This document shows, piece by piece, positions 1 to 50,357 of a stretch of DNA of 64,000 bases. Location: contig NC_134033.1 in the NCBI RefSeq assembly GCF_964204645.1, positions 13,208,155 to 13,272,154 on the forward strand. Direction: 5' to 3'. The translations under genes were made by a program, and so were the position numbers. The DNA is from Tubulanus polymorphus. Taxonomy: Eukaryota > Nemertea > Palaeonemertea > Tubulaniformes > Tubulanidae. Position 1 is the first letter of the stretch; every line of letters starts with the position of its first letter. The notes beneath the pieces are model-generated. The model made no database searches and had not been told where the DNA came from. It worked only from the letters and a program-made list of their open reading frames with translations.

Positions 1-3000
1 AAACCGTTTTTGCTGACGAAGATTATGCTGACCTGCAGCACGCGAAATATCTTTGATCTACACGGATACATGATATTTACCGAAAACCGCTTTCGCGCAC
101 AGAAAGTTTTAGAACTTCTTTTACAGTAACTGCCTCGAGGCATTTTACTAGTGCAGTAACTTTTCTGCAGTTCTGGATCTGCAGCAACTTTAAAAAGACC
201 TACAGACAAAGCCGAGGCTTATTTCAAACTAAGAACCTTCGACGATAGGAAATCTTAATTAGGACAATAGAAAATACCAATTTATGCAGATAATTTCGTA
301 TTCATCATGAAAAATCGATTGTAAACGTTAATTAAGATAGAATCTGAATTTCTAGATTTCTTTAATTCCTGCAGCTCGGAATCGGTTCATAGATTATTGA
401 GACAATATGAGTTTCACTTATGTGATTTATGTAAGGCCCCATACAAAATGGAAGATACCAAAGATATGCAATAGTTTGGTCGCATTCGCTACATGCAGAA
501 TTGCGTATACTATGAATATGCGCTGATATTTGTGTGCCCTCTACAAAACTTGATGAGCTTCTCAGTGGCGGATCCAGGAGGTGTCCATGGGGGTCTGGAC
601 GGTTTAATATGAGAAATAAAAGCTGAATTGATTTGAAGAAAAGAAAAGTATCTTCGTCTTGATTTCATTGCTTGTTTGTAGAATGGATTTGAAGTTGAGA
701 CAAATTGCAGAGAAGGTAAAGAGAAGAGATAAACGCGGATATCCAATGTTCGAACTCATTATATTGATGATGGTTAATCTCTAAAGTTGTCTGTCTGATG
801 CTGGAAAGACTAAACAGGGATGTCCCAGGTTCAAACCCAGATATTGATTCTGCGTGTGTCCAGATGCTGAGTCTTCCCATCTCCTGTGGTTGGTAATACA
901 TTCCAGGGTTATCCAAAAATGATTAATCAGAGCCCAGATTAAGCCGGTAATTAGTCCCGTTGATAATTGATAGAATTAGAAATATAGGTAATCAATACGA
1001 ATTTATACGATGGATACACGATCGCCATCTATTAGAATTTCCAGGAACTAACTGTTTTTACGAATTGAAACTGTATATTCGGTTATCTTAGTCTAGCGCA
1101 CATGCGCCATCTACTAGACAAACATAGGACTGCTGTCGAGCATGAACTAAGATAATTCTATTATTCTCCTACAATTCCCATGCCACGTAGACGGAACAAA
1201 TAATTTGGAGGATACGGACGACCCACTTTTTAGATCCAAGTCCCTTCAAAATTTTGTTTTTTCACATCCCGGAAATATTTTGCCGTATATTGTCCAGAAA
1301 ACGGCCCTCTCAAGCTTCGAATTTCAAAAATTAAGGCTATCTAAGAACTTTCAAGCAATTTCAGAAATACTGGTTAGTCTTCAGCGTTCGGCGGATAAGG
1401 TGCTAAGTATCGGTTTCAGGTTTGTACGGAAATCTCTCCTCCAGGGTATCGGGTCCTGTTACTGAGTTTCTGTTTATTTGGTCGAAATAATATATTGATA
1501 TTTGGGCGGATATCGTGTGGTTTCAATTGGTTTTATTCAGGATTCAACACGCACAAGATGGTTGAATACCCCTTACCGCGGAGTTTCCGATATATGTTTG
1601 ATGTTGGTATGATGCTCTAGTTTTCAGAAGTTACACAATCGCTGCAGCACACGACAGATGACAGAAAATCGTCGCATCGTGCGAACCGTTTTTGCTGACG
1701 AAGATTGTGCTGACCTGCAGCACGCGAAATATCTTTGATCTACACGGATACATGATATTTACCGAAAACCGCTTTCGCGCACAGAAAGTTTTAGAACTTT
1801 TTTTGACGCCTTATAAAACGTTACCATTATGAAACCTAAACAATGCTAACCATTCAGCGTCATTTTACAAACGACAGCCGTAAATCGATGTGCAAAACGT
1901 CACAGGTTTATGTGTACACAAACAAGCTATCTGGCAAAATATTATTGACATAGATGTAGAATGGCTTCCTGTGATTATATAATGACCTACATTTGAACGT
2001 CGAAATGTTATATTGCATTGAATATCATTAGAAGACGTATTGTAATAGTAAAGGATGTATGATTATATCAGAAGCGGCAGGCATAAATAGAAATGATAAG
2101 TAAATCGGATTATTCGGTTAAATGGCGGATGTATACACGATGCAGAAGTCTGATATAAAAGTCAGACCCTGACGTGGGCATGCCGGTGGAATGACGAAGC
2201 TATCTACGATGTGTGTAGGGCCGGCGTGAATTTCATCAGCGGCTACTAGCGGTCAATATGAAAATGTGTAAACATATAATTTCAATATTCAATCGTTTGT
2301 GAAAATATGTTTGATATTAGGAGTATGCAAGTTTCGTGAGATTAGCAATTTATAATAGCATAGCTGTCATATACGGCTCCGTGTCCTCTGATGGCATGTG
2401 TATTAGGTGACAATTCAATTCAATTCTTTATTGATCCTTATTACATTGAAATTCCGGGATAAAATTCCCAAATTCAATAAATACAAATTTTAAAATAAAT
2501 TAATACAACATACATGACACACGGGTAATTCATACAGAACAACATAAGCATGTTATTTTAAATGACAATGTCTACTTCAACCCACCCAGACTCAAGACTC
2601 TAGGATATCGAGTGACAGCCAAACCCGTGGCCCGGGACCGGGCCGGCTGGCTAGGCCACACATGCTCGAAGTCATGATGAAGCAGACATCAGAAGAGCTC
2701 TTTCTTCATCCATGGAGGCAATGAAGTTGCAGACCAGCTTAGAGGCATAAGTAAATGAAGTCGGTCGCAAGTTCGCGATCAATTATTGAGAATTTTCAAT
2801 AAAAAAATTTAAACCACTACTAGAGTCGAAGACCTGTATCATCTACCCAATCGCCAAATCTCATCATTCCCCAAATTTCTTAAAACTTCGATTTCAAATT
2901 TGCAATTCCACAAGCTTAGCCCAGAAATTCTACATTTTTTCCCAGGCGTCAAATAATTTTCTAAAATTAATTTTCTTGTTTACAGTAACTGCCTCGAGGC

Positions 3001-5072
3001 ATTTTACTACTGCAGTAACTTTTCTGCAGTTCTGGATCTGCAGCAACTTCAAATAGACCTACAAAGCTGAGGCTTATTTCAATCTAAGGATTCGACGATA
3101 GGAAATCTTAATTTGGACAATAGAAAATACCAATTAATGCAGATTATTTCGTATTCATCATGAAAAATCGATTGTAAACGTTAATTAAGACAGAATCTGA
3201 ATTTCTTGATTTCTTTAATTCCCGCAGCTCGGAATCGGTTCATAGATTATTGAGACAATATGAGTTTCACTTATGTGATTTATGTAAGGCCCCATACAAA
3301 ATGGAAGATACCAAAGATATGCAATAGTTTGGTCGCATTCTCTACATGCAGAATTGCGTATACTATGAATATGCGCTGATATTTGTGTGCCCTCTGCAAA
3401 ACTTGACGAGCTTCTCAATGGCGGATCCAGGAGGTGTCCATGGGGGTCCGGACGGTTTACTATGAGAAATAAAAGCTGAATTGATTTGAAGAAAAGAAAA
3501 GTATCTTCGTCTTGAGTTCATTGCTTGTTTGTAGAATGGATTTGAAGTTGAAACAAATTGCAGAGAAGGTAAAGAGAAGAGATGAACGCGGATATCCAAT
3601 GTTCGAACTCATTATATTGATGATGGTTAATCTCTAAAGTTGTCTGTCTGATGCTGGAAAGACTAAACAGGGATGTTCCAGGGTACAAACCCAGATATTG
3701 ATTCTGCGTGTGTCCAGATGCTGAGTCTTCCCATCTCCTGTGATTGGTAATACATTCCAGGGTTATCCAAAAATGATTAATCAGAGCCCAGATTAAGCCG
3801 GTAATTAGTCCCGTTGATAATTGATAGAATTAGAAATATAGGTAATCCATACGAATTTATACGATGGATACACGATCGCCATCTATTAGAATTTCCAGGA
3901 ACTAACTGTTTTTACGAATTGAAACTGTATATTCGGTTATCTTAGTCTAGCGCACATGCGCCATCTACTAGACAAACATAGGACTGCTGTCGAGCATGAA
4001 CTAAGATAATTCTATTCTCCTACAATTCCCATGCCACGTAGACGAAAAAATTATTCGGGGGATACGGACGACCCACTTTTTAGATCCAAGTCCCTTCAAA
4101 ATTTTGTTTTTTTCACATCCCGGAAATATTTTGCCGTAAATTGTCCAGAAAACGGCCTCTCAAGCTTCGAATTTCAAAAATTAAGGCTATCTAAGAACTT
4201 TCAAGCAATTTCAGAAATACTGGTTAGTCTTCAGCGTTCGGCGGATAAGGTGCTAAGTATCGGTTTCAGGTTTGTACGGAAATCTCTCCTCCAGGGTATC
4301 GGGTCCTGTTACTGAGTTTCTGTTTATTTGGTCGAAATAATATATTGATATTTTGGCGGATATCGTGTGGTTTCAATTGGTTTTATTCAGGATTCAACAC
4401 GCACAAGATGGTTGAATACCCCTTACCGCGGAGTAACCGTTATATGTTTGATGTTGGTATGATGCTCTAGTTTTCAGAAGTTACACAATCGCTGCAGCAC
4501 ACGACAGATGACAGAAAATCGTCACATCGTGCAAACAGTATTTGCTGACGAATGTGCTGACCTGCAGCACACGAAATATCTTTGATCGTCACGGATACAT
4601 GATATATACCGAAAACCGCTGTCGCGCACAGAAAGTTCTAGCACTTTTTTTACAGTAACTGCCTCGAGGCATTTTACTACTGCAGTAACTTTTCTGCAGT
4701 TCTGGATCTGCAGCAACTTCAAATAGACCTACAAAGCTGAGGCTTATTTCAATCTAAGAATCTTCGACGATAGGAAATCTTAATTAGGACAATAGAAAAT
4801 ACCAATTTATTCAGATTATTTCGTATTCATCATGAAAAATCGATTGTAAACGTTAATTAAGGCAGAATCTGACAATATGAGTTTCACTTTTCGTATGTGA
4901 TAAACGTTAGGCCCCATACAAAATGGAAGATACCAAAGATATGCAATAGTTTGGTCGCATTCGCTACATGCAGAATTGCGTACACTATGAATATGCGCTG
5001 ATATTTGTGTGCTCTCTGCAAAACTTGACGAGCCTCTCAGTGGCGGATCCAGGAGGTGTCCATGGGGGTCTG
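1..5072. repeat. Tandem array of a ~1.67-1.68 kb repeat (two full units plus a partial third)
   Basis: The sequence at the window start recurs near 1684 and again near 4533. Unit 1 is about 1-1682. Unit 2 is about 1683-4530 and is lengthened by an insertion at 1805-2978. Unit 3 runs from about 4531 to 5072 and is cut short. The copies differ by scattered substitutions and small indels. Each full unit carries the same short open frame (1205-1465 and about 4031-4315) ending in the same residues. I do not recognise that frame, and it is probably not a gene. A stretch reading TGGCGGATCCAGG occurs in each copy, and its reverse complement appears near 25546. This short sequence resembles the termini of some DNA transposons. 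The array probably continues left of the window. Confidence 0.9.
1805..2978. mobile_element. 1.17 kb insertion inside the second tandem unit
   Basis: Units 1 and 3 read straight from the A/T-rich run after AGAAAG into TTTACAGTAACTGCC. Unit 2 is interrupted at exactly that point by about 1.17 kb of unrelated sequence. The insert carries no long open frame and no clear terminal repeat. Its distal part (about 2408-2560) is A/T-rich and resembles the 3' end of a retroelement, but I cannot name a family. The insertion point lies in a T-run, so a target duplication cannot be read with confidence. Confidence 0.6.
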
Positions 5073-6044: not shown

Positions 6045-9000
6045 ATGTTGTTCGGTATGGAGCAGCGACTAAGAGCGCTGTTTACGGCGTCGCTGATCGT
6101 CCGTCATGTTTTCATCGCACGCGCTGATCGCGCAGACTCTATCGAGGAATCGTCTGTGACGGTAAGCTCGTCTTGTAACGACACTTGGTACCCCGTTGAT
6201 TCTACGTCCGGTTACATCGTTTCACCGAATTATCCGTCGTTAACGCGCGGTGTTGAATGTGGTTGGTTCATCAACAGCTCTTTACCGGGGACTTTTCACT
6301 CCCAGGCATACTACAACATCGAGCCGTCAATATTCTGCAGTGATAACTACCTTCTCTTTGAGTCTGATAACAGATTCTGTGGTGATGGAAAACATGAAAT
6401 TCACCGTAACAACTGGATCTCGTTGATGTTTAGGAGTAACGTCGATGGTGCGCGAGGTAGTCGGGTTTATATCATATATCGTTATGAACGAAGCCGATTG
6501 AAAATAAGTCACAACTGCGGGAAATATAATCTTAAAATGAATGAATTGGAAACGTCGACAGGATACAAATACACTATAAGCCGAATAAAGATTTGTCAAT
6601 TGTTTATGGAATGGATCGGAATACCAGATGGTTTTGCTATGAACCTGACTTTATGCAAGTTAACTCTTATTCTACAACCAGCTGCTGATCCAGCGACGAC
6701 TCTAAATATCTATGACGGATGGAAAACCAGTGAACCTATAGCTCTTGTGCGAGAACAAGCCGGACATCCACCTTCATCATTTTATACGAAAACAAATAAT
6801 GTCATCATCTCTTTACTATATCATCGAGTGTGGAGATGTCAGTTACAGCTTTTAGTTCGGATGTACAAAATATCAGATTGGAACGTCTCTAATCCGTTGA
6901 TTCAGATCTCTAATAACGAATCGGGAGTGCTCATTCCCGGTGACAAGAGTTTACACGTAATAACTCGATCAAAACACTTACACTGCTGGTCTATCTCAGT
7001 GCAGGTGTTACAGTACGTCGTCTTCAACTGGACACGTGATCTCGTCACGTCCGGTGATGTCATTGGTGTCTATAAACTAGAAGGTTTACGCGTTGTAGGA
7101 ACAGATATTCTACTTGGTTACAACTACCTGGAATCACTAGGCGTCAAATCTGACGGATTTCTCGTCATATTGTGCGTTTTAATGAGGGCTGATGTTATGA
7201 TGTCGAAACCGGAAATATTCTACAAAATGAATTCGCTATCAATCGTTGATCTTCATGTTGGGACATTTGTGGTAAGTGCTGTGGTAAGAACTGTGCCGGT
7301 TTTGGCGGAGTCTACTGTAGTTTGAAATGTTTGCATGTTTTACAATAATTGACGATATGGAACACATGACATTTTTTGCTGTTACAGGTAACGCAACCCA
7401 TGGAATGTATGTATTCCTGGGGACTATTGCCGCTCGTAAAAAGAAAAACGTTTACGTATCGAGTGACTAATCTTAAGTTGAAATCGAGAATGGATATCAC
7501 CGAAAAACAATTCCAACTTACCGTGTTATCAGAGAACTGCGAGCGAGCTGGATTTTACATATATGACGGTGGAAGTTTCACAGCTCGACGCTACGGTCCG
7601 TATTGTCCAGGTTTAAAGTCATTTGCCCGTGATGTCGTCAGTCTGATTACATCAGATGGATCGGTAACTATAGTAGCGTACGCTTATAACTGGGATGGTC
7701 AGTTAGTAACCGAAAAGACATTTTCACGATGTATCATGTTTCGCGCTACTGACTGTGACGGGTATGTTTTAAAGGAGGGAGAACACCAGATCAATGTGAC
7801 GTCACACTGTGTCGTGATTACACCGGAAAACCGACGCCTTCCTTTGAGAAATATTTATGTATTATCAGAACACGAATATCAAATTGACCGATGCGTTCCA
7901 GAACATGTTCACGCAGTGTGCAGATCCTATATGGATATCGACAGTAGCCTTATTGAAGGTGGAAATCTAGTACTAAACAAAGTAAATCTGAAAATGCTTT
8001 ATCCATTTTTGACTTCTGCCCGAATAGTCAAACTGAGACGGAAGTGCTACGGATTAAGAAAGGCTGGATATGACTGGAACAATGAGGTGTGCGGGCTCGT
8101 ACAGTCACCGAACTACCCAGCACCTGCAGGAAACACTGCTCAGGCGATATTCTATGCAGTATATTATAGATATGATCAAAGTCGATTTCGTTATTACAAA
8201 TTCATAATTAAAAACATTGAAATGATTGAATGCGTTAAACGATCCCAATACGATAAAGATTCAGTATCGTTCATACAACAGATCCAGACAACTGAACTCA
8301 GACAAAAATTATGTGGACGTCACGCCGGGCATACACTTCACAGTTTGATCACTATCCAACATAAGTTTCAGGTGAAAGATAGAATTCCAACATTTCGAAT
8401 ACAATACATTCTAGAAGAAACGCTACCATTAACCGAATACGAGAAAGCATGCAAATCGGGATTTCTTGATTCGGGAATTTCCTGCATAAAATACATCAGA
8501 GATAAACGTCTGAATTGGGAGAACGCTGAATTGTACTGTAGACAGAAATACACGGGACATCTACTCAGTATCAACTCAGAACAGGAAATGATTTCTATCA
8601 AAACATTATTCGCTACGAAACTTCTTAAAAATGCATATTCACAGAAAGCGCTTATAATGATGATTGGATTAAAATATCAGGTACACGTATTTTCCAAAAT
8701 TTTATTGAATGAAATTTCATTTCCATAATTTTTTTATCGTTTATTTTCGAACTCATTTTCAGCAAAATACTGGTTATTATACGTGGACTGATGGGAAACC
8801 ATTGAGCTACACAGAGTGGTTCAAACCTGCAATTAACGAAACGATACCAGAAGTTATTCGAGGATTGATATCTCCAGACAGAAAACAACCGTTAAATGAC
8901 GTCAATATGCCGTGTACGGCGATGATTCTGAACAACCCACGTGGTTCTGCCAACTGGGTTCGATATCCATGCGTGATTGAAGAGGTTCACACAAGTTTCA

Positions 9001-11996
9001 TTTGTGAAACCGAAAGAATCAACTTAAATGAAAATATAACAGGAAAGAATTCCGTGAAAAGTGAATTTTCAAGTCCAGTAGTATCACCAACAGATATAAA
9101 CACGACTTGTAAAATCGGTTGGTTAGGCATAGCTGGACGATGTTATCAAATACTGACAAAATGGAACATGAACAAAATTTTAGATATCGTAAGTGCAAGG
9201 AGAATGTGCAACAGCATTAGTGGTGAAATAGGTATTATGCAGGATCTGATGCATGCCAAAACGTTGATTGGTAGATTTCGTTATCAGCACCAATATGGCG
9301 CTATTCTAACGAAGAATTTCAATAATCAGTTGAGGGCAATAAAACCAATAGTAACCAGAAATGAAACTACTTATGACCTATCGGTTAACTTCGCCTTGGT
9401 ATTGATACCCGGGGTAAATCTGAGAGATACAACGCATTCTGTTTTGTGTTCATATAATGTCACCGGTGAAGAGTTAGCTTCTATAAGCGGTTGTAAATCG
9501 TGGCAGTTTGAATGTAACGATCAAAGATGTATCAGCGACCATCGCGTATGTGATACCAGACACGACTGTCGACACGGTGAAGATGAACTGAATTGTACGG
9601 ATATGAATCTACACAGTCAGTTTCAGTGCTATGATAATAAGATTGTATCAATAAGTGGTTTTTGTGATTTCATACAGGATTGTGTGGATCGTTCTGATGA
9701 GAACTCGTGTTTTCATCCGTCGTGTTTGGCTGAACAATTTCGTTGTAGTAGTGGTCAATGTGTCAACAGGTCTAACAGGTGTGACGGAGTCACTAATTGT
9801 AAGGACGGCTCCGATGAAATGGAATGCACCGTTGAACTGTGTCAGGGGTTTCTGTGTAATAGTGAAGACTGTATCAGTACTCAGTTGTACCAGGATGGTG
9901 TCGTGGATTGTAGTGGAAGCCTTGAAGAAGATGAATTAGTAACAACTACTAATATTACAGTGAATCCTACGGTTCGTTGCAATGGTGAAAACCACTGTAC
10001 GACTAAATTCACAAATCTCTGCACAGAATCGGATGAACAAAGATGTTCCTTCGATTCCCCTCATTGTTATTCTAGACGTCACAGATGTATTTTAGAAAGA
10101 ATGGATAATATTTACCCAGTTTGTAGAAATCTTGAGCACGTATTGAAATGTGAAAAATTTGAATGTCCATCTAGTACTGTAAAATGTCCAACATCGTATT
10201 GTATACCGATCAGACAGGTGTGCGATGGTCGATCAGATTGTCCTAATTCAGAAGATGAACAAAACTGCGAGACATTTTCATGTCCAGGAATGTTTAAATG
10301 TGGTCTTGAAAATCGATGTATTCCACAATCTGAAGTTTGCGATGGTGTCATAAATTGTAAACGTACAACTGATGACGAGGCTTTCTGTAACGTCTCGTGT
10401 CTCAGAAGTTGCAAATGTCAAGGTTATTTGATAGATTGTGGAAATGCTGGTTTAACAGATATTACTCGTCTTTTCTCGGCATCAACTCGAGTTCTCAATC
10501 TGTCTTGTAACAAAATTATCTTGGACACGACGACATTTTTTTCATACGTCTATCTTCGTATGCTCAACATATCCTCCAATGAATTGTCTTATCTTTTGCC
10601 AAATACGTTTTCAAGCCTGCACAATCTATTTACACTAGACTTTACATATAATAATATAACAACATTATCAACAAATACATTCACTGGTTTGTATAGTTTG
10701 AAAGAATTATTCATATCTGGGAACCCTCTGCGTCTTTTAGAGGTAGATACCTTTCAAGATTTGAAATCGCTGAAAATTCTTGATCTTCAAGGACTTTCCT
10801 TGTCGGTGCTTGGTATGAATGTATTTCGAGGTTTATTAACATTACAGTCGTTGAATATCAGCCGTAACAGAATCCATTATATTTCGCTTTACGCATTTTC
10901 CGGGTTAGCTACACTTGAAACACTTGATATAACCAACAATTACGAAGTTATTTCTGTCAACCGAAAGGTTTTTCAAAATCTGACAGCATTAGTCTTTTTA
11001 ACGTCTGATGCTTACAAATTTTGCTGCATGGCACCGAATGTTGACCACTGCCTTCCTGAAGCTGATCAATTTTCCTCCTGTTCTGATCTGATGGGTAACA
11101 CAGTCCTAAGAGTTATCATTTGGGTTATCGCTACATTCAGTTTCTTTGCTAATGGAATTGTCATTTCTCTTCGTGTTCATGCAATTCGATTCTCTTCCTC
11201 AAATCCATCTTCAAACATCATTATCGTCAATGTTGCTCTGTGTGATTTCCTGATGTCTGTATATTTGTTCTTGATCGCTGGAGCTGATTACAATTATAAA
11301 GGTATCTACTTTCTCCACTCAGATTCATGGACGGACAGTTTGTTTTGTCGTCTTGCTGGGATCTTGGTGTCCATATCTTGCGAAGGTTCGTTGATATTTC
11401 TGCTCATCATGACGCGTTATAGATTTTCCAATATTGTGAATCCATTTTCTGGGAACCGCGTCGTATCACATGTGTCCATGATTTGCGGTCTATGTTGGCT
11501 TGTCTTTGGTGTTATTGCAGCACTACCACTTGTACCTTTCCCATACTTTGGAAACAATTTCTATGGTACTACTGGAGTTTGTTTACCAATGAATTTGATT
11601 TCAATTGATGTCAACGCCTGGCAATATTCGTTTGCTATTTTTTCTATTTCGAACTCTGTAATACTTGCTACAATAATGGCGACCTATGCACAAATGTACA
11701 GACTCGTATCTGGAAGCAGATCTGGTTCGGGTAGAGCTGATCCTACCGAGCTGATTTTGGCACGCAGGAGTTTGGTGATAAATCTCTGTAATCTATTTTG
11801 CTGGCTGCCGATAATTACCGTTCAGTTTTGCGCGGTATTTCGTGTAGAAATACCGAATCAGGTGGCGGCTTGGTTGGCGATTCTTTTCTTACCGATCAAT
11901 TCGTCCCTGAATCCACTTCTTTACACCATACTGACTATTGATTTGAAATCCATTCTGGCGAAGACTAAACGCCGCCCAAATCAACTGGACACATAA
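6045..11996 (+). CDS. CUB / C-type lectin / LDLa / LRR seven-transmembrane receptor (GRL101-like)
   Basis: Exons are 6045-7271, 7388-8680 and 8763-11996. All junctions are phase 0 with GT-AG ends, giving about 1917 aa. The first ATG (6045) precedes a hydrophobic signal-like stretch. Residues ~45-150 read as a CUB domain (SPNYPS, then a Cys-Gly-Trp). Further CUB-like segments follow, with a second clear SPNYP near residue 650. A C-type lectin domain (~763-920, with WTDGKPLSY) spans intron 2, and a degenerate second lectin-like segment follows. About six LDL-receptor class A repeats occupy ~1084-1385, some lacking calcium-binding acidics. A cysteine cap and about six leucine-rich repeats lead to a hinge containing SSCSDLMGNTVLR, typical of leucine-rich-repeat GPCRs. 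Seven helices start at ~1622. Helix 7 has NPLLY, but the usual DRY/ERW site is TRY. LDLa plus LRR plus rhodopsin-type helices match snail GRL101, while the CUB/lectin head is extra. Role is inferred: a surface receptor for an extracellular protein or glycan. The ligand is unknown. Confidence 0.93.
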
Positions 11997-26401: not shown

Positions 26402-29185
26402 TCACTTGTCTAGACGATGACCCAGTGCCTTACACGCAGCCTGTTTCATCGTGCAGTACCACCTTCCGTTAACGATTCCCCACGTTCGTTTCGCTCGGGA
26501 GAAACGACACTTTCTGAACGTTCTCTCGATATGCGCTCGAGCGTCACGCGCCTTCCAGTCGTTCCAGTAACAAACCATCGCTTCGTTGTTGTAATAGTGA
26601 TTGGAAATGTTGCCCAACAGATCCATACCGAGTCTGATGGCCGCTGAGGCTGCCGTCGCCGCGAGCCTTTTTTGGCGTTGGTCATTGGTTTCTTCTGTAA
26701 TTAGAAATCATCATCACAATATGATTCATTACGAAGCATTTTTTATAATATGCGCAATATTATAACGAAAGGAAAAATTAGACGTTTCATAATCACACTT
26801 CTATAAGTATTTTCATTATAATCATGTATTAAAATGTATCATGTCCGTGTATTCTATGTTGTAGTTATGATTCTCTCGGCGATGTTGTGAGGGATCTGTC
26901 TTTAGGCTGGATCTTCAGTCCTCGTTCTTGACTTTTACAATCTCCAGTATATAACCTTAACGACTTCTTAGATTATCTATTCGTTTATTGTCTCTTTGTA
27001 TACACAATCTCTTTCTGGAGCTCTGTTCTCTCAAACCTCTAAAAACCTCTAAGCTTTTTTAAACCTATAAACGCTCCCTTTTTTATTATTTTCTCTTAAG
27101 TAATGTGTGCAGGCCCTTTTCCACACATGGCTTGGAATTCATGGATTGTGACGTATTCTTACGTCACTTAACATTCCGCCAATCCATGTATGGGTGATGA
27201 CGTATCCGAAACACCGCTGAAGGAAAACGATTGATAGTAAACGAACAACGTGGGGTTAAATGAAACCATAAAAATCAGGTAAATTCATTTGTTTTGCTTC
27301 GAGCAGTTATCGGTTTGAAAAAAATCCAATGGGTCAAATTCTTATCAAAATCAATAGAACCTTATCATAAAATAACTCGACTCTCTGTAGAGAGCTAGAT
27401 TTAGAGCTGGCAACATGAATGAATTAACATTCAGCAACGTCCACCGCTCGTTCCGAAATTTCCATAGTCGTGTCATTTTTGGACCCAAGAGGTTGGCTGA
27501 GGCACTCCGTATATGTAATACTGAGATACCTAGAGATGACCCTCTCAGAGGATTACGGGTGTTGGCGATTGGCGCAGGTCAAGGGCATCTATTAGAAGAT
27601 ACCATGAGTTCAGTTGGCGATGAAATAAACGTAGATTGTTTGGACTGCGTCGAACCGAACAGTGTTATGATGATAGAACTGCAGACTCGTATGAGTTTAC
27701 TCGCTAGTAAGTACAACTTCGAGTATAAACTCTATCAGCAACGGTTTACCAGAGAAAGCGCCGCTTCTTTTTTACCAAATGATTTCTACGATTTGTTGAT
27801 ATTTTCACACGTGTTGTATTATTTCCGCGATCCAGCTCCTGAGTTGCAATTTGGTCTGTATCAACTAACCCACAAAAATGGACGCGCGTTCGTTGTAATG
27901 GACGTTGACAGCATGATAACGACGGTAGCAGAAGACATCCATCGTTCCTTAGGACAACCTGATCGTGGCATTCCTCCGCACGTTAATTACTACATTGGCG
28001 AATATGATATTGAGGGGATTCTAGCCAAGGCTAAGACGAAGACGGTTTTCTTTTCAACAGACCCGGCATCACTGTCTGTTCATCTCGCTCTTCAACCGGC
28101 TCGACCTTGTATTAGTAAAAGCGATGAAGAAATTCGGAAAATAGGCGACGAGCTATTGTCGTTCCTGGCGCAAAGGAACGTAGCGGAATTACCAGAAAAT
28201 TCACGAGTTCAAATACAGGATGTTGTTCGTAAACATACAGCGGACAGTCAGGGGTTTCCAATCATACAGGGTAATTTGAAAAGCTGTTTAGTGATCAGAG
28301 ATGACGGAGACTGAATTGTGTAACGAAATATTGAGATCGTCTTTAAAGCAGCTTCGCCACAGAACTACAAATATTTACTCTAGTGTATTGGATTCTTCTT
28401 CATGTTGCTACATGTTGCCCGGGCATAAATAATCAGCCATGTCTGTCACACCTCATTCATTGTCTTTGTGTCTTTGCCCGACTGTCTCGGTCTTGCTCAA
28501 ACTGCTTTTTATGTCGCACTGTGAAAAACATGCCACAACTCGTCGTCACCCGACAACCTTTTTTAGTTTTGCACTCATCAAATTGTGAGTCATACATGTA
28601 AATTGGAACTGTAAATATAGATTATGTCATATATATGTCATAGCTATAAGCGAGCATACAACACTTGGAGTTCCAAGTTGGAAATAAAACTACGATACGC
28701 TGTAGCAAATCCTCTTGTCTCGCTGCATTTTCCACCCTGTCCTAAGTTTCAGACGACGAACGATCGAAGAAACTCACGCATTGATCGTATTAAACAGAAG
28801 AAAACCCTAAATAAACGCCATCTTGGAAGTGGCCTTCCTCAGACCGTAACTGCCTGGTCAAAGGCATCGATTATACTGGATACCTATTTGCCCTATCTTT
28901 CAATAGCATTTGAAAATACAAACTAAGAATACCAGACATAGTCATTTTATGACCAGAAATATTTAGGAAGTGACTACATTATACAATTATCTGACGGGAT
29001 TGTTCCCGCGGGTAGTTTAATTTCACCAATTAAACGGGCCTAGAGGCCTAAAGGGCCAATATTCTGCTTGCGAAAACCTTTCGAGAGGAAATGAACCAAT
29101 GGAAATTTTGAGCCTTACCCTGCTGGGCGATTACAGCCGCTAAACAAAGCATGAAAATGACCACCAAAGTGACGTTATACTTCAT
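26402..29185 (-). CDS. Secreted cationic four-cysteine peptide precursor
   Basis: Two coding exons, 29185-29119 and 26694-26402, are joined in phase to give 119 aa. Exon 1 is almost entirely a signal peptide (MKYNVTLVVIFMLCLAAVIA). Exon 2 begins with a short acidic-polar stretch ending in RQKR, a furin-type cleavage site at residues 29-32. This leaves an 87-residue mature peptide: an alanine-rich amphipathic start (LAATAASAAIRLG), then four cysteines spaced 20, 17 and 6 residues apart, with abundant Arg/Lys. Layout (signal, short pro-segment, hydrophobic helix, basic cysteine part) recalls big defensins and other host-defence precursors, but the cysteine pattern matches no family I know. An untranslated exon probably ends at 29729 (donor GTTAGT), with an A/T-rich TATA-like stretch near 29785. 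The single coding intron contains the methyltransferase gene on the other strand. Function is unknown; antimicrobial or signalling roles are guesses. Confidence 0.72.
27415..28314 (+). CDS. Histamine N-methyltransferase-like SAM-dependent methyltransferase
   Basis: An uninterrupted 299-codon frame. Residues 48-60 hold motif I (VLAIGAGQGHLLE), which binds the methyl donor SAM. E80 in CVEPN is the expected acidic ribose-binding residue. Residues ~123-139 (DLLIFSHVLYYFRDP) correspond to the motif IV/V region. The arrangement, length and LYY-x-D-P stretch match the HNMT family (human HNMT is 292 aa), which methylates small amines. The true substrate cannot be inferred. A 3' splice site (GATTTAG) lies ten bases before the ATG, so a 5' untranslated exon is possible. 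The gene sits wholly inside the coding intron of the minus-strand secreted-peptide gene, and its lack of introns suggests a retrocopy. Confidence 0.85.
   Translation: MNELTFSNVHRSFRNFHSRVIFGPKRLAEALRICNTEIPRDDPLRGLRVLAIGAGQGHLLEDTMSSVGDEINVDCLDCVEPNSVMMIELQTRMSLLASKYNFEYKLYQQRFTRESAASFLPNDFYDLLIFSHVLYYFRDPAPELQFGLYQLTHKNGRAFVVMDVDSMITTVAEDIHRSLGQPDRGIPPHVNYYIGEYDIEGILAKAKTKTVFFSTDPASLSVHLALQPARPCISKSDEEIRKIGDELLSFLAQRNVAELPENSRVQIQDVVRKHTADSQGFPIIQGNLKSCLVIRDDGD
28315..29118. other. 3' flank of the methyltransferase gene inside the host intron
   Basis: No second gene is evident. Open frames at 28383-28601 and 28624-28926 follow the methyltransferase stop and show no recognisable motif. They probably lie in its 3' untranslated region. 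Confidence 0.5.
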
Positions 29186-30390: not shown

Positions 30391-37723
<7,333 letters not shown>

Positions 37724-48670: not shown

Positions 48671-48874
48671 GGTTCGCACCATTTTAAGGGCCTGGGTTTA
48701 AATAAAAGCCATTGGGTGTTTAGCACCCAAGAAGGAAAAACATCAAAAATTTCCGAAGACAATCAGTGATATTCAAAAGGATTTTCTGCTCAAAAGATTC
48801 TGCTCTTTTCTTCAGCTAAATTACTACATGTATACTTATCCACTAGTCATAAAAAGTACAAAATGATCTTCAAC

Positions 48875-50343
48875 CTTGTAATATAGATATCCAAAATCTC
48901 GATTTAATAGAATAGGCAGAAAAAAAGTTTACCTTGTAATATAGATATCCAAAATCTATATGTATTAAAAAGGCAGAAAAAAGTTAACCTGGTAATATAG
49001 ATATCCAAAATCTCAAAGTAATGAACTAGGCAGAAAAAAACCTTGTAATATAGATATCCAAAATCTCGATGTAATAAAATAGGCAGAAAAAAACCTTGTA
49101 ATATAGATATCCAAAATCTCAATTTACTAAAGTAGGCAGAAAATAAAGTTAACCTTGTAATATAGATATCTAAAATCTGGATGTAATAGAATAAGCAGAA
49201 AAAAAATAAACCTTGTAATATAGTTATCCAAAATCTCGATGTAATAAAATAGGCAGAAAAAAAAATAAACCTTGTAATATAGATTTCCAAAATCTCGATG
49301 TAATAAGATAGACAGAAAAAAAGTTAACCTTGTAATATAGATATCCAAAATCTAGATGTAATAAAATAGGCAAGAAAAAGAATAAACCTTGTAATATAGA
49401 TATCCAAAATCTCGATGTAATAAAATAGGCAGAAAAAAAAATTAACCTTGTAATATAGATATCCAAAATCTAGATGTAATAAAATAGGCAAGAAAAAGAA
49501 TAAACCTTGTAATATAGATATCCAAAATCTCGATGTAATAGAATAGGCAGAAAAAAAATAAACCTTGTAATATAGATATCCAAAATCTCGATGTAATAGA
49601 ATAGGCAGAAAAAAAATAAACCTTGTAATATAGATATCCAAAATCTCGATGTAATAGAATAGGCAGGAAAAAAAAATTAACCTTGTAATATAGATATCCA
49701 AAATCTCGATGTAATAAAATAGGCAGAAAAAAAAATTAACCTTGTAATATAGATTTCCAAAATCTCGATGTAATAAAATAGACAGAAAAAAGTTAACCTT
49801 GTAATATAGATATCCAAAATCTAGTTGTAATAGAATAGGCAGAAAAAAAATAAACCTTGTAATATAGATATCCAAAATCTCGATGTAATAAAATAGGCAG
49901 AAAAAAAAATTAACCTTGTAATATAGATTTCCAAAATCTCGATGTAATGAAATAGACAGAAAAAAAGTGAACCTTGTAATATAGATATCCAAAATCTAGT
50001 TGTAATAGAATAGGCAGAAAAAAAAATAAACCTTGTAATATAGATATCCAAAATCTCGATGTAATAGAATAGGCAGAAAAAAAATTAACCTTGTAATATA
50101 GATATCCAAAATCTCAAATGTAATAAAATAGGCAAGAAAAAGAATGAACCTTGTAATATAGATATCCAAAATCTAGATGTATTAAAATAGGCAGAAAAAA
50201 AGTTAACCTTGTAATATAGATATCCAAAATCTCGATGTAATAAAATAGGCAAGAAAAAGAATAAACCTTGTAATATAGATATCCAAAATCTAGATGTATT
50301 AAAATAGGCAGAAAAAAAGTTAACCTTGTAATATAGATATCCA
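48875..50343. repeat. Satellite of ~58-bp units, 26 copies
   Basis: Units of about 53-62 bp run head to tail from 48875 to 50343. Each contains CCTTGTAATATAGATATCC then AAAATCTCGATGTAATA and an A-run after GGCAG. I counted 26 starts. Variant units (AGATTTCC for AGATATCC; TCTAGATG for TCTCGATG) recur in blocks, so groups of units were duplicated together. Long minus-strand frames across it (repeating DIYITR) are a product of the repeat and not a gene. Confidence 0.95.
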
Positions 50344-50357
50344 AGCAGCAGCGGCGG

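Follow-up and report, generated by a model that had tools for sequence, protein, structure and literature searches.

We describe a receptor gene in a 64,000-nucleotide (nt) stretch of the genome of Tubulanus polymorphus (Nemertea; NCBI RefSeq assembly GCF_964204645.1, contig NC_134033.1, positions 13,208,155 to 13,272,154, forward strand), which is called the window throughout. The gene lies at window positions 6045-11996 and probably encodes a GRL101-type (type C, relaxin-receptor-like) leucine-rich repeat (LRR) G-protein-coupled receptor (GPCR) whose head combines CUB domains with a C-type lectin-like domain (CTLD), or perhaps two of them, and which belongs to a recognition family of about 300 copies. 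The family reaches this size by motif count and lies largely in tandem arrays. Its structure, the order of its domains, the motif-based family size, the contrast between conserved tail and variable head, and the differing histories of the two in the copies compared are direct readings of the DNA. The use that appears most likely is recognition of non-self (microbe or parasite), somewhat above external chemosensing, which comes next.

Gene structure and splicing

The gene comprises three exons:

6045-11996, + strand: receptor gene, three exons, 1,917 residues when joined in frame
6045..7271, + strand: exon 1, 409 residues, N-terminus and CUB region (open frame, donor GTAAGT)
7272..7387, + strand: intron 1, 116 nt, phase 0 (GT...AG)
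7388..8680, + strand: exon 2, 431 residues, hypervariable head and first half of the lectin domain
8681..8762, + strand: intron 2, 82 nt, phase 0, within the lectin domain (GT...AG)
8763..11996, + strand: exon 3, 1,077 residues and stop; remainder of the lectin domain, LDLa, LRR and seven-helix domains

The joined protein contains CUB, CTLD, LDLa, LRR and rhodopsin-type seven-helix (7TM) modules. This is the order proposed in an earlier note on this DNA, which had been made without database searches, and a domain search of the joined protein bears it out. Paralogs were sought in the animal's own genome (267.8 Mb, 77 contigs), and we fetched 20 loci around 7TM matches, chosen by us from the 130 listed and spread over contigs. 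Exons 1, 2 and 3 are present in identical order in 20/20 of these paralogs, with both introns at the same positions and with splice-like sites; all three exons are also present in 4/4 further loci (contigs C8, C5 and C10). When all three phases were scanned, the best-scoring donor was in phase 0 in 20/20 paralogs for both introns, and the best acceptor was in phase 0 in 18/20 and 19/20 paralogs for the two introns. These paralogs bear out the earlier note in its reading of a single gene with two phase-0 introns, one following exon 1 and the other interrupting the lectin domain. Each intron has a length that is not a multiple of three in 14/20 paralogs, so the intron is required for keeping the frame.

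Taken together, exons 1-3 appear to be one gene, and two separate genes are unlikely because of the conserved exon order, the splice-like sites and the gain in CTLD score upon splicing: the lectin domain passes the Pfam cut-off only in the spliced protein. A wrong joining of two neighbouring genes could be argued from the head and tail signals, which are weak (CUB and CTLD) or separate when taken exon by exon, and from the join having been read from DNA alone. Against this stand the features just listed and the 13/13 listed heads of an array on contig C12 that have a tail about 4.9 kb on, and we regard such a misjoining as very improbable.

A GRL101-type tail

The tail, encoded by exon 3, is made up of three parts:

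9492..10391, + strand: LDLa cluster, limits set from cysteines (Pfam LDLa 2.2e-32, 6 stretches; cysteine pattern)
10398..11027, + strand: leucine-rich repeats, limits approximate (LRR_8 1.6e-28)
11085..11996, + strand: seven-helix domain and short cytoplasmic tail (7tm_1 4.6e-17)

Several LDLa repeats lie N-terminal to the LRRs, and the rhodopsin-class 7TM domain is nearest to those of the relaxin and glycoprotein-hormone receptors, as in GRL101 and other type C LRR-GPCRs; the likeness to snail GRL101 drawn in the earlier note is therefore upheld. The closest solved structure to the 7TM domain is relaxin receptor 1 (RXFP1, a type C LGR; 1.4e-43), followed by LHCGR (8.3e-20). RXFP1 follows the same LDLa-LRR-7TM logic, but it is a hormone receptor that has a single LDLa and lacks a CUB or CTLD head. 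The best LRR matches are the insulin-like growth factor (IGF) acid-labile subunit (3.4e-40) and LGR4 (6.8e-37), and the LDLa cluster matches LRP2 at 2.5e-119, summed over 8 stretches. A CTLD ahead of the LDLa-LRR-7TM series is found here as in the SudRes2 receptors of Biomphalaria (see below).

The key motifs of class-A GPCRs are N1.50, D2.50, CWxP, NPxxY and the D/E-R-Y that closes helix 3. N1.50, D2.50, the C, W and P of CWxP, and the N, P and Y of NPxxY (helices 1, 2, 6 and 7) are invariant in 21/21 copies, and we infer a signalling-competent receptor of the GRL101 type. The D/E-R-Y motif is altered: the first place is T in 21/21 copies, the second is R in 20/21 and the third is H in 18/21, with the window gene reading T-R-Y.

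CUB and lectin-like domains of the head

The following domains were delimited in the head:

6174..6488, + strand: CUB domain 1, residues about 44-148 (Pfam CUB; profile match to cubilin)
6492..6905, + strand: CUB-like domain 2, variable, residues about 150-287
8042..8425, + strand: CUB domain in exon 2, joined residues about 628-755
8450..9008, + strand: C-type lectin-like domain 1, split by intron 2 (spliced Lectin_C 6.1e-9)
9108..9458, + strand: possible second, divergent C-type lectin-like segment (weak profile match)

The CUB signature was recovered by sequence and fold searches. Pfam CUB is matched in 21/21 members (best 3.2e-7, window gene 0.0071), and the profile of CUB domain 1 matches cubilin at 3.7e-13 over 3 stretches. 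In a profile comparison of 7 segments, exon 1 residues 40-150 and exon 2 residues 225-350 stood out as a possible internal repeat (E 1.7e-4, 49% probability), and none stood out among the remaining pairs of the 21 segment pairs. We claim no more than three putative CUB domains. The fold searches of the exon 1 and exon 2 models probed essentially one domain per model, and the overall confidence of these AlphaFold models is low (mean predicted local distance difference test score 51 and 59, respectively). Cubilin, MASP/C1s/C1r, neuropilin and enteropeptidase contain CUB domains akin to the head in sequence or fold; among the CUB matches listed, no name is that of a rhodopsin-class receptor. A hydrophobic stretch (10 residues, mean hydropathy at least 1.7) lies within the first 45 residues of 21/21 copies, and a 19-residue scan at a threshold of 1.5 detected no hydrophobic stretch at the N-terminus of the window gene.

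The first CTLD matches a single-CTLD PDB chain (1.2e-6). Its sequence is similar to that of the mannose-receptor family (LY75, PLA2R), for which the top matches are sums over many weak stretches; LY75 and PLA2R are single-pass receptors without a 7TM domain. The calcium/sugar motifs of sugar-binding C-type lectins are W-N-D and EPN/QPD. These motifs were not found in the 21 copies, as aligned by eye: CTLD 1 has N-W-x-R where sugar-binding CTLDs have W-N-D (21/21), and an invariant QP pair is never followed by D. Classical calcium-dependent sugar binding by this domain is unlikely because W-N-D is replaced in every copy, which leaves the glycan binding suggested in the earlier note without support in its classical form; glycans are no more likely as ligands than proteins, mucus or surfaces. 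That note had also counted one or two lectin segments. The first stands, and the second is possible: a profile built from 6/21 paralogs matches Lymphocyte antigen 75 at E 0.0023 over 9108..9458, with no Pfam match in this segment.

Family size and genomic arrays

In a protein search with the 7TM domain, the best 130 of 481 candidates were scored, all of them at least 74% identical; the corresponding search with exon 1 scored the best 102 of 370. The family was counted by short motifs with up to 3 mismatches. Genome-wide, 305 sites match a 33-base 7TM motif and 202 match a 34-base exon-1 motif, counts that take in broken copies and possible assembly duplicates, and the reversed controls gave 0 each. 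Four tails without a listed exact head motif carry the motif at 3, 2, 2 and 4 mismatches; since one of these loci exceeds 3 mismatches (the other three being within the 202), the head count is a lower bound. Alternative heads on these four tails are ruled out, as all four carry the three exons.

The earlier note had described a single shuffled receptor. The gene instead belongs to a family in which 305 tails bear the motif, and one-off domain shuffling is ruled out: the head is present in 24/24 distinct loci searched for all three exons (20 + 4). The arrays are dense: at 4.82-4.94 Mb on contig C12 there are 13 head motifs among the matches listed, mostly about 7.65 kb apart, each with a tail about 4.9 kb downstream (12 tails from the motif list and the 13th from the protein search). 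By hand count, 108/130 listed 7TM matches sit in an open frame of at least 1,072 residues. In-frame stops occur in 10/130, and the two inspected (loci L024 and L025) are slightly shorter C-terminal tails; exon 2 of L026 carries a frame break. No relatives of the family were found in viral contigs.

On contig C6, runs of the family at 19.82-19.86 and 20.05-20.09 Mb recur about 232.3 kb apart, several with equal scores. These are either a recent segmental duplication or a leftover assembly haplotype, and local copy counts may be inflated. Exon 2 of L031 (positions 1094-3747 of that locus) contains an insert of about 2.65 kb, and about 15 bases of exon 2 match both flanks, as a transposon insertion could leave.

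Divergence and constraint

Mean column identity is 73% for exon 1 (21 rows), 58% for exon 2 (20 rows, as L026 is omitted from this alignment) and 80% for exon 3 (21 rows). The window gene is 64-75% identical to its paralogs in exon 1 (n=20), 43-70% in exon 2 (n=19) and 69-77% in exon 3 (n=20). Exon 2 is the most diverged exon, with a mean synonymous divergence (dS) of 1.30. The median ratio of nonsynonymous to synonymous divergence (dN/dS) is 0.38, 0.34 and 0.23 for exons 1, 2 and 3, respectively, and the corresponding values for the window gene against the others are 0.37, 0.35 and 0.25. All parts of the gene are therefore under constraint. Among recent copies, the highest dN/dS is 0.86-0.91, in exon 2.

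Synonymous divergence varies widely along the gene: the proportion of synonymous differences (pS) is 0.13 at residues 301-330 and exceeds 0.7 in parts of exon 2, which fits, and does not prove, partial homogenisation between copies. The block at residues 301-330 (window 6945-7034) in exon 1 is 95% conserved and is flanked by strongly varying parts.

These values bear on the view that the gene is a GRL101-type hormone receptor (with an insulin/IGF-related ligand) that has merely been duplicated, its head serving as a spacer. The 7TM domain and LRRs do resemble those of relaxin and LGR receptors, and passages of one paper propose an IGF receptor role for GRL101 (PMC8286064). The same passages give a single GRL101 per ambulacrarian studied (PMC8286064), and 305 motif copies with a variable head are unlike one-copy hormone receptors; the head, moreover, is constrained (dN/dS 0.34-0.38). 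A duplicated hormone receptor is accordingly a poor candidate, and we give it little credence.

Differing histories of head and tail

Head and tail have differing histories in the copies compared. In the exon 2 tree, the window gene groups with L011 and L030 (100/100), a group that was picked after the exon-2 identities were known. This group is rejected by exon 3 (approximately unbiased [AU] test, p 8e-6), in whose tree the window gene belongs to a clade of seven rows (100/100), with L030 inside it and L011 outside.

A recent case is seen in L030 and L032, which lie in one C6 array and are 99.6% identical in exon 3, 95.1% in exon 1 and 93.1% in exon 2, with indels in exons 1 and 2. The change-over is late in exon 2, adjoining the lectin domain. 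Synonymous differences number about 37/562 in exons 1 and 2 versus 8/695 in exon 3 (p 3e-7), and the introns follow the same pattern: 12/215 sites differ in intron 1, with 52 gap columns, versus 0/193 in intron 2 (p 5e-4). In the 800 bases upstream of the start codon, 19/794 sites differ. A third copy of this array, L033, served as a control: across the gene, no 200-column window holds more than 4 sites at which it and L030 differ. The L030/L032 data would fit either converted tails or exchanged heads.

Differing histories would also suit self/non-self receptors of the allorecognition or gamete kind, with heads that vary between individuals and recognise members of the same species. Both CUB and C-type lectin domains are known from proteins of gametes and of allorecognition systems. 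Hundreds of loci, on the other hand, exceed the usual allorecognition systems, and we consider same-species recognition improbable.

Proposed function and relation to known systems

The receptor nearest in build to that in the window is found in Biomphalaria sudanica. According to passages of a 2025 report, the SudRes2 region, associated with schistosome resistance, holds 10 GRL101-like receptors with CTL, LDL, LRR and GPCR domains plus 2 partial ones (PMC12297450). Shared with the Tubulanus gene are the CTLD ahead of LDLa, LRR and rhodopsin-type 7TM domains, the clustering of paralogs and a suggested role in pathogen recognition. The two systems differ in scale (10 full copies, or 12 with partials, versus 305 motif copies in T. 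polymorphus) and in the head: the term CUB has 0 occurrences in the main text of that report, and its passages report no head/tail exchange (PMC12297450). Lymnaea stagnalis GRL101 (Tensen et al. 1994, as cited in PMC12297450 and PMC8286064) likewise shares LDLa repeats, LRRs and a rhodopsin-type 7TM domain. It is described in these citing passages with twelve LDLa and six LRRs, versus 6 Pfam LDLa stretches in the window gene, and with no CUB or lectin head named. A Xenoturbella paper, in the portion available, names GRL101 solely in a tree legend (PMC11521371). Screened by titles and the opening lines of abstracts, the open-licence literature searched yielded no CUB-headed CTLD-LDLa-LRR-7TM family and none of hundreds of copies. 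The CUB head, the scale of the family and the reassortment appear new, while the combination of a lectin domain with GRL101 has already been published for Biomphalaria (PMC12297450).

We propose that, outside the cell, the head would bind protein or surface ligands that vary, that the LDLa-LRR stalk would pass this binding on to the 7TM domain, and that the conserved 7TM domain would signal via one common G-protein pathway. Exchange of heads between copies would then alter the target of recognition and leave the output unchanged. In a more specific and tentative form, which we put forward at somewhat less than even weight, the family would be a germline-encoded repertoire of hundreds of receptors in which recombination joins interchangeable CUB-lectin cassettes to homogenised LDLa-LRR-7TM tails and a wide range of non-self cues leads to one G-protein output. 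Such a repertoire would be the GPCR counterpart of the expanded NLR, FREP or Sp185/333 families. Many copies, a variable binding part and recombination between copies, the marks of a diversified repertoire, are found here despite a null homoplasy test.

The strongest competitor is a chemosensory family, with one or few copies per sensory cell, that senses environmental proteins, mucus, and prey or conspecific cues rather than pathogens. Large families of GPCRs in tandem are a usual feature of chemoreception. In addition, a GRL101-like receptor is enriched in the sensory tentacles of the crown-of-thorns starfish, for which passages of the report suggest a chemosensory role (PMC6267866). The divergence in the present family is concentrated in the extracellular head, however, and not in the 7TM domain, and, according to the passages cited above, the most similarly built cluster in print is linked with resistance to a parasite (PMC12297450). 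A chemosensory use is possible and, in our judgement, somewhat less likely than non-self recognition.

Several points weigh against non-self recognition by a signalling receptor family. G-protein coupling is uncertain given the threonine in place of the D/E-R-Y acid in 21/21 copies. The short N-terminal hydrophobic stretch is at most a plausible signal peptide, and the usual sugar/calcium residues of the CTLD are missing. As to family size, the motif counts include the broken and possibly duplicated copies mentioned above, and the other 22/130 listed 7TM matches sit in shorter frames (328 to 1,026 residues), likely including pseudogenes. Positive selection on the head was not detected, with whole-exon dN/dS below 1 in all pairs. 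As to reassortment, exon 1 is undecided on the group of the window gene, L011 and L030 (AU p 0.115), and that group was a post hoc choice; recent exchange is seen in one pair only (L030/L032). A homoplasy-based recombination test (similar to the pairwise homoplasy index) on 20 divergent copies was not significant: 667/1,000 shuffles gave a value no higher than that observed, and exon by exon the numbers were 457, 177 and 827 of 1,000.

If non-self recognition is nonetheless correct, a GPCR family of about 300 that varies in its extracellular head more than in its 7TM domain would be an unusual recognition repertoire. It would also provide a link to the CTL-bearing GRL101-like receptors of the Biomphalaria resistance region. 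Exchange of heads and tails would offer a simple, testable model for receptor diversification with one signalling output kept.

Other features of the window

A large direct repeat occupies window positions 1-5070, directly upstream of the receptor gene. Its spacing is about 2.85 kb, and it is 98% identical over three 300-nt samples: those at 238, 823 and 1299 recur at 3091, 3677 and 4149. A third, partial copy begins at about 4650 (by eye). At 48872-50344, a 59-bp unit is repeated in tandem (25.4 copies, 89% matches). The 307-residue open frame at 27391-28314 resembles a methyltransferase weakly (2.5e-5, short of the cut-off). The open frame at 34731-35204 has an MCM P-loop domain (E 2.4e-50) and is probably one exon of a gene for a subunit of a replicative helicase.

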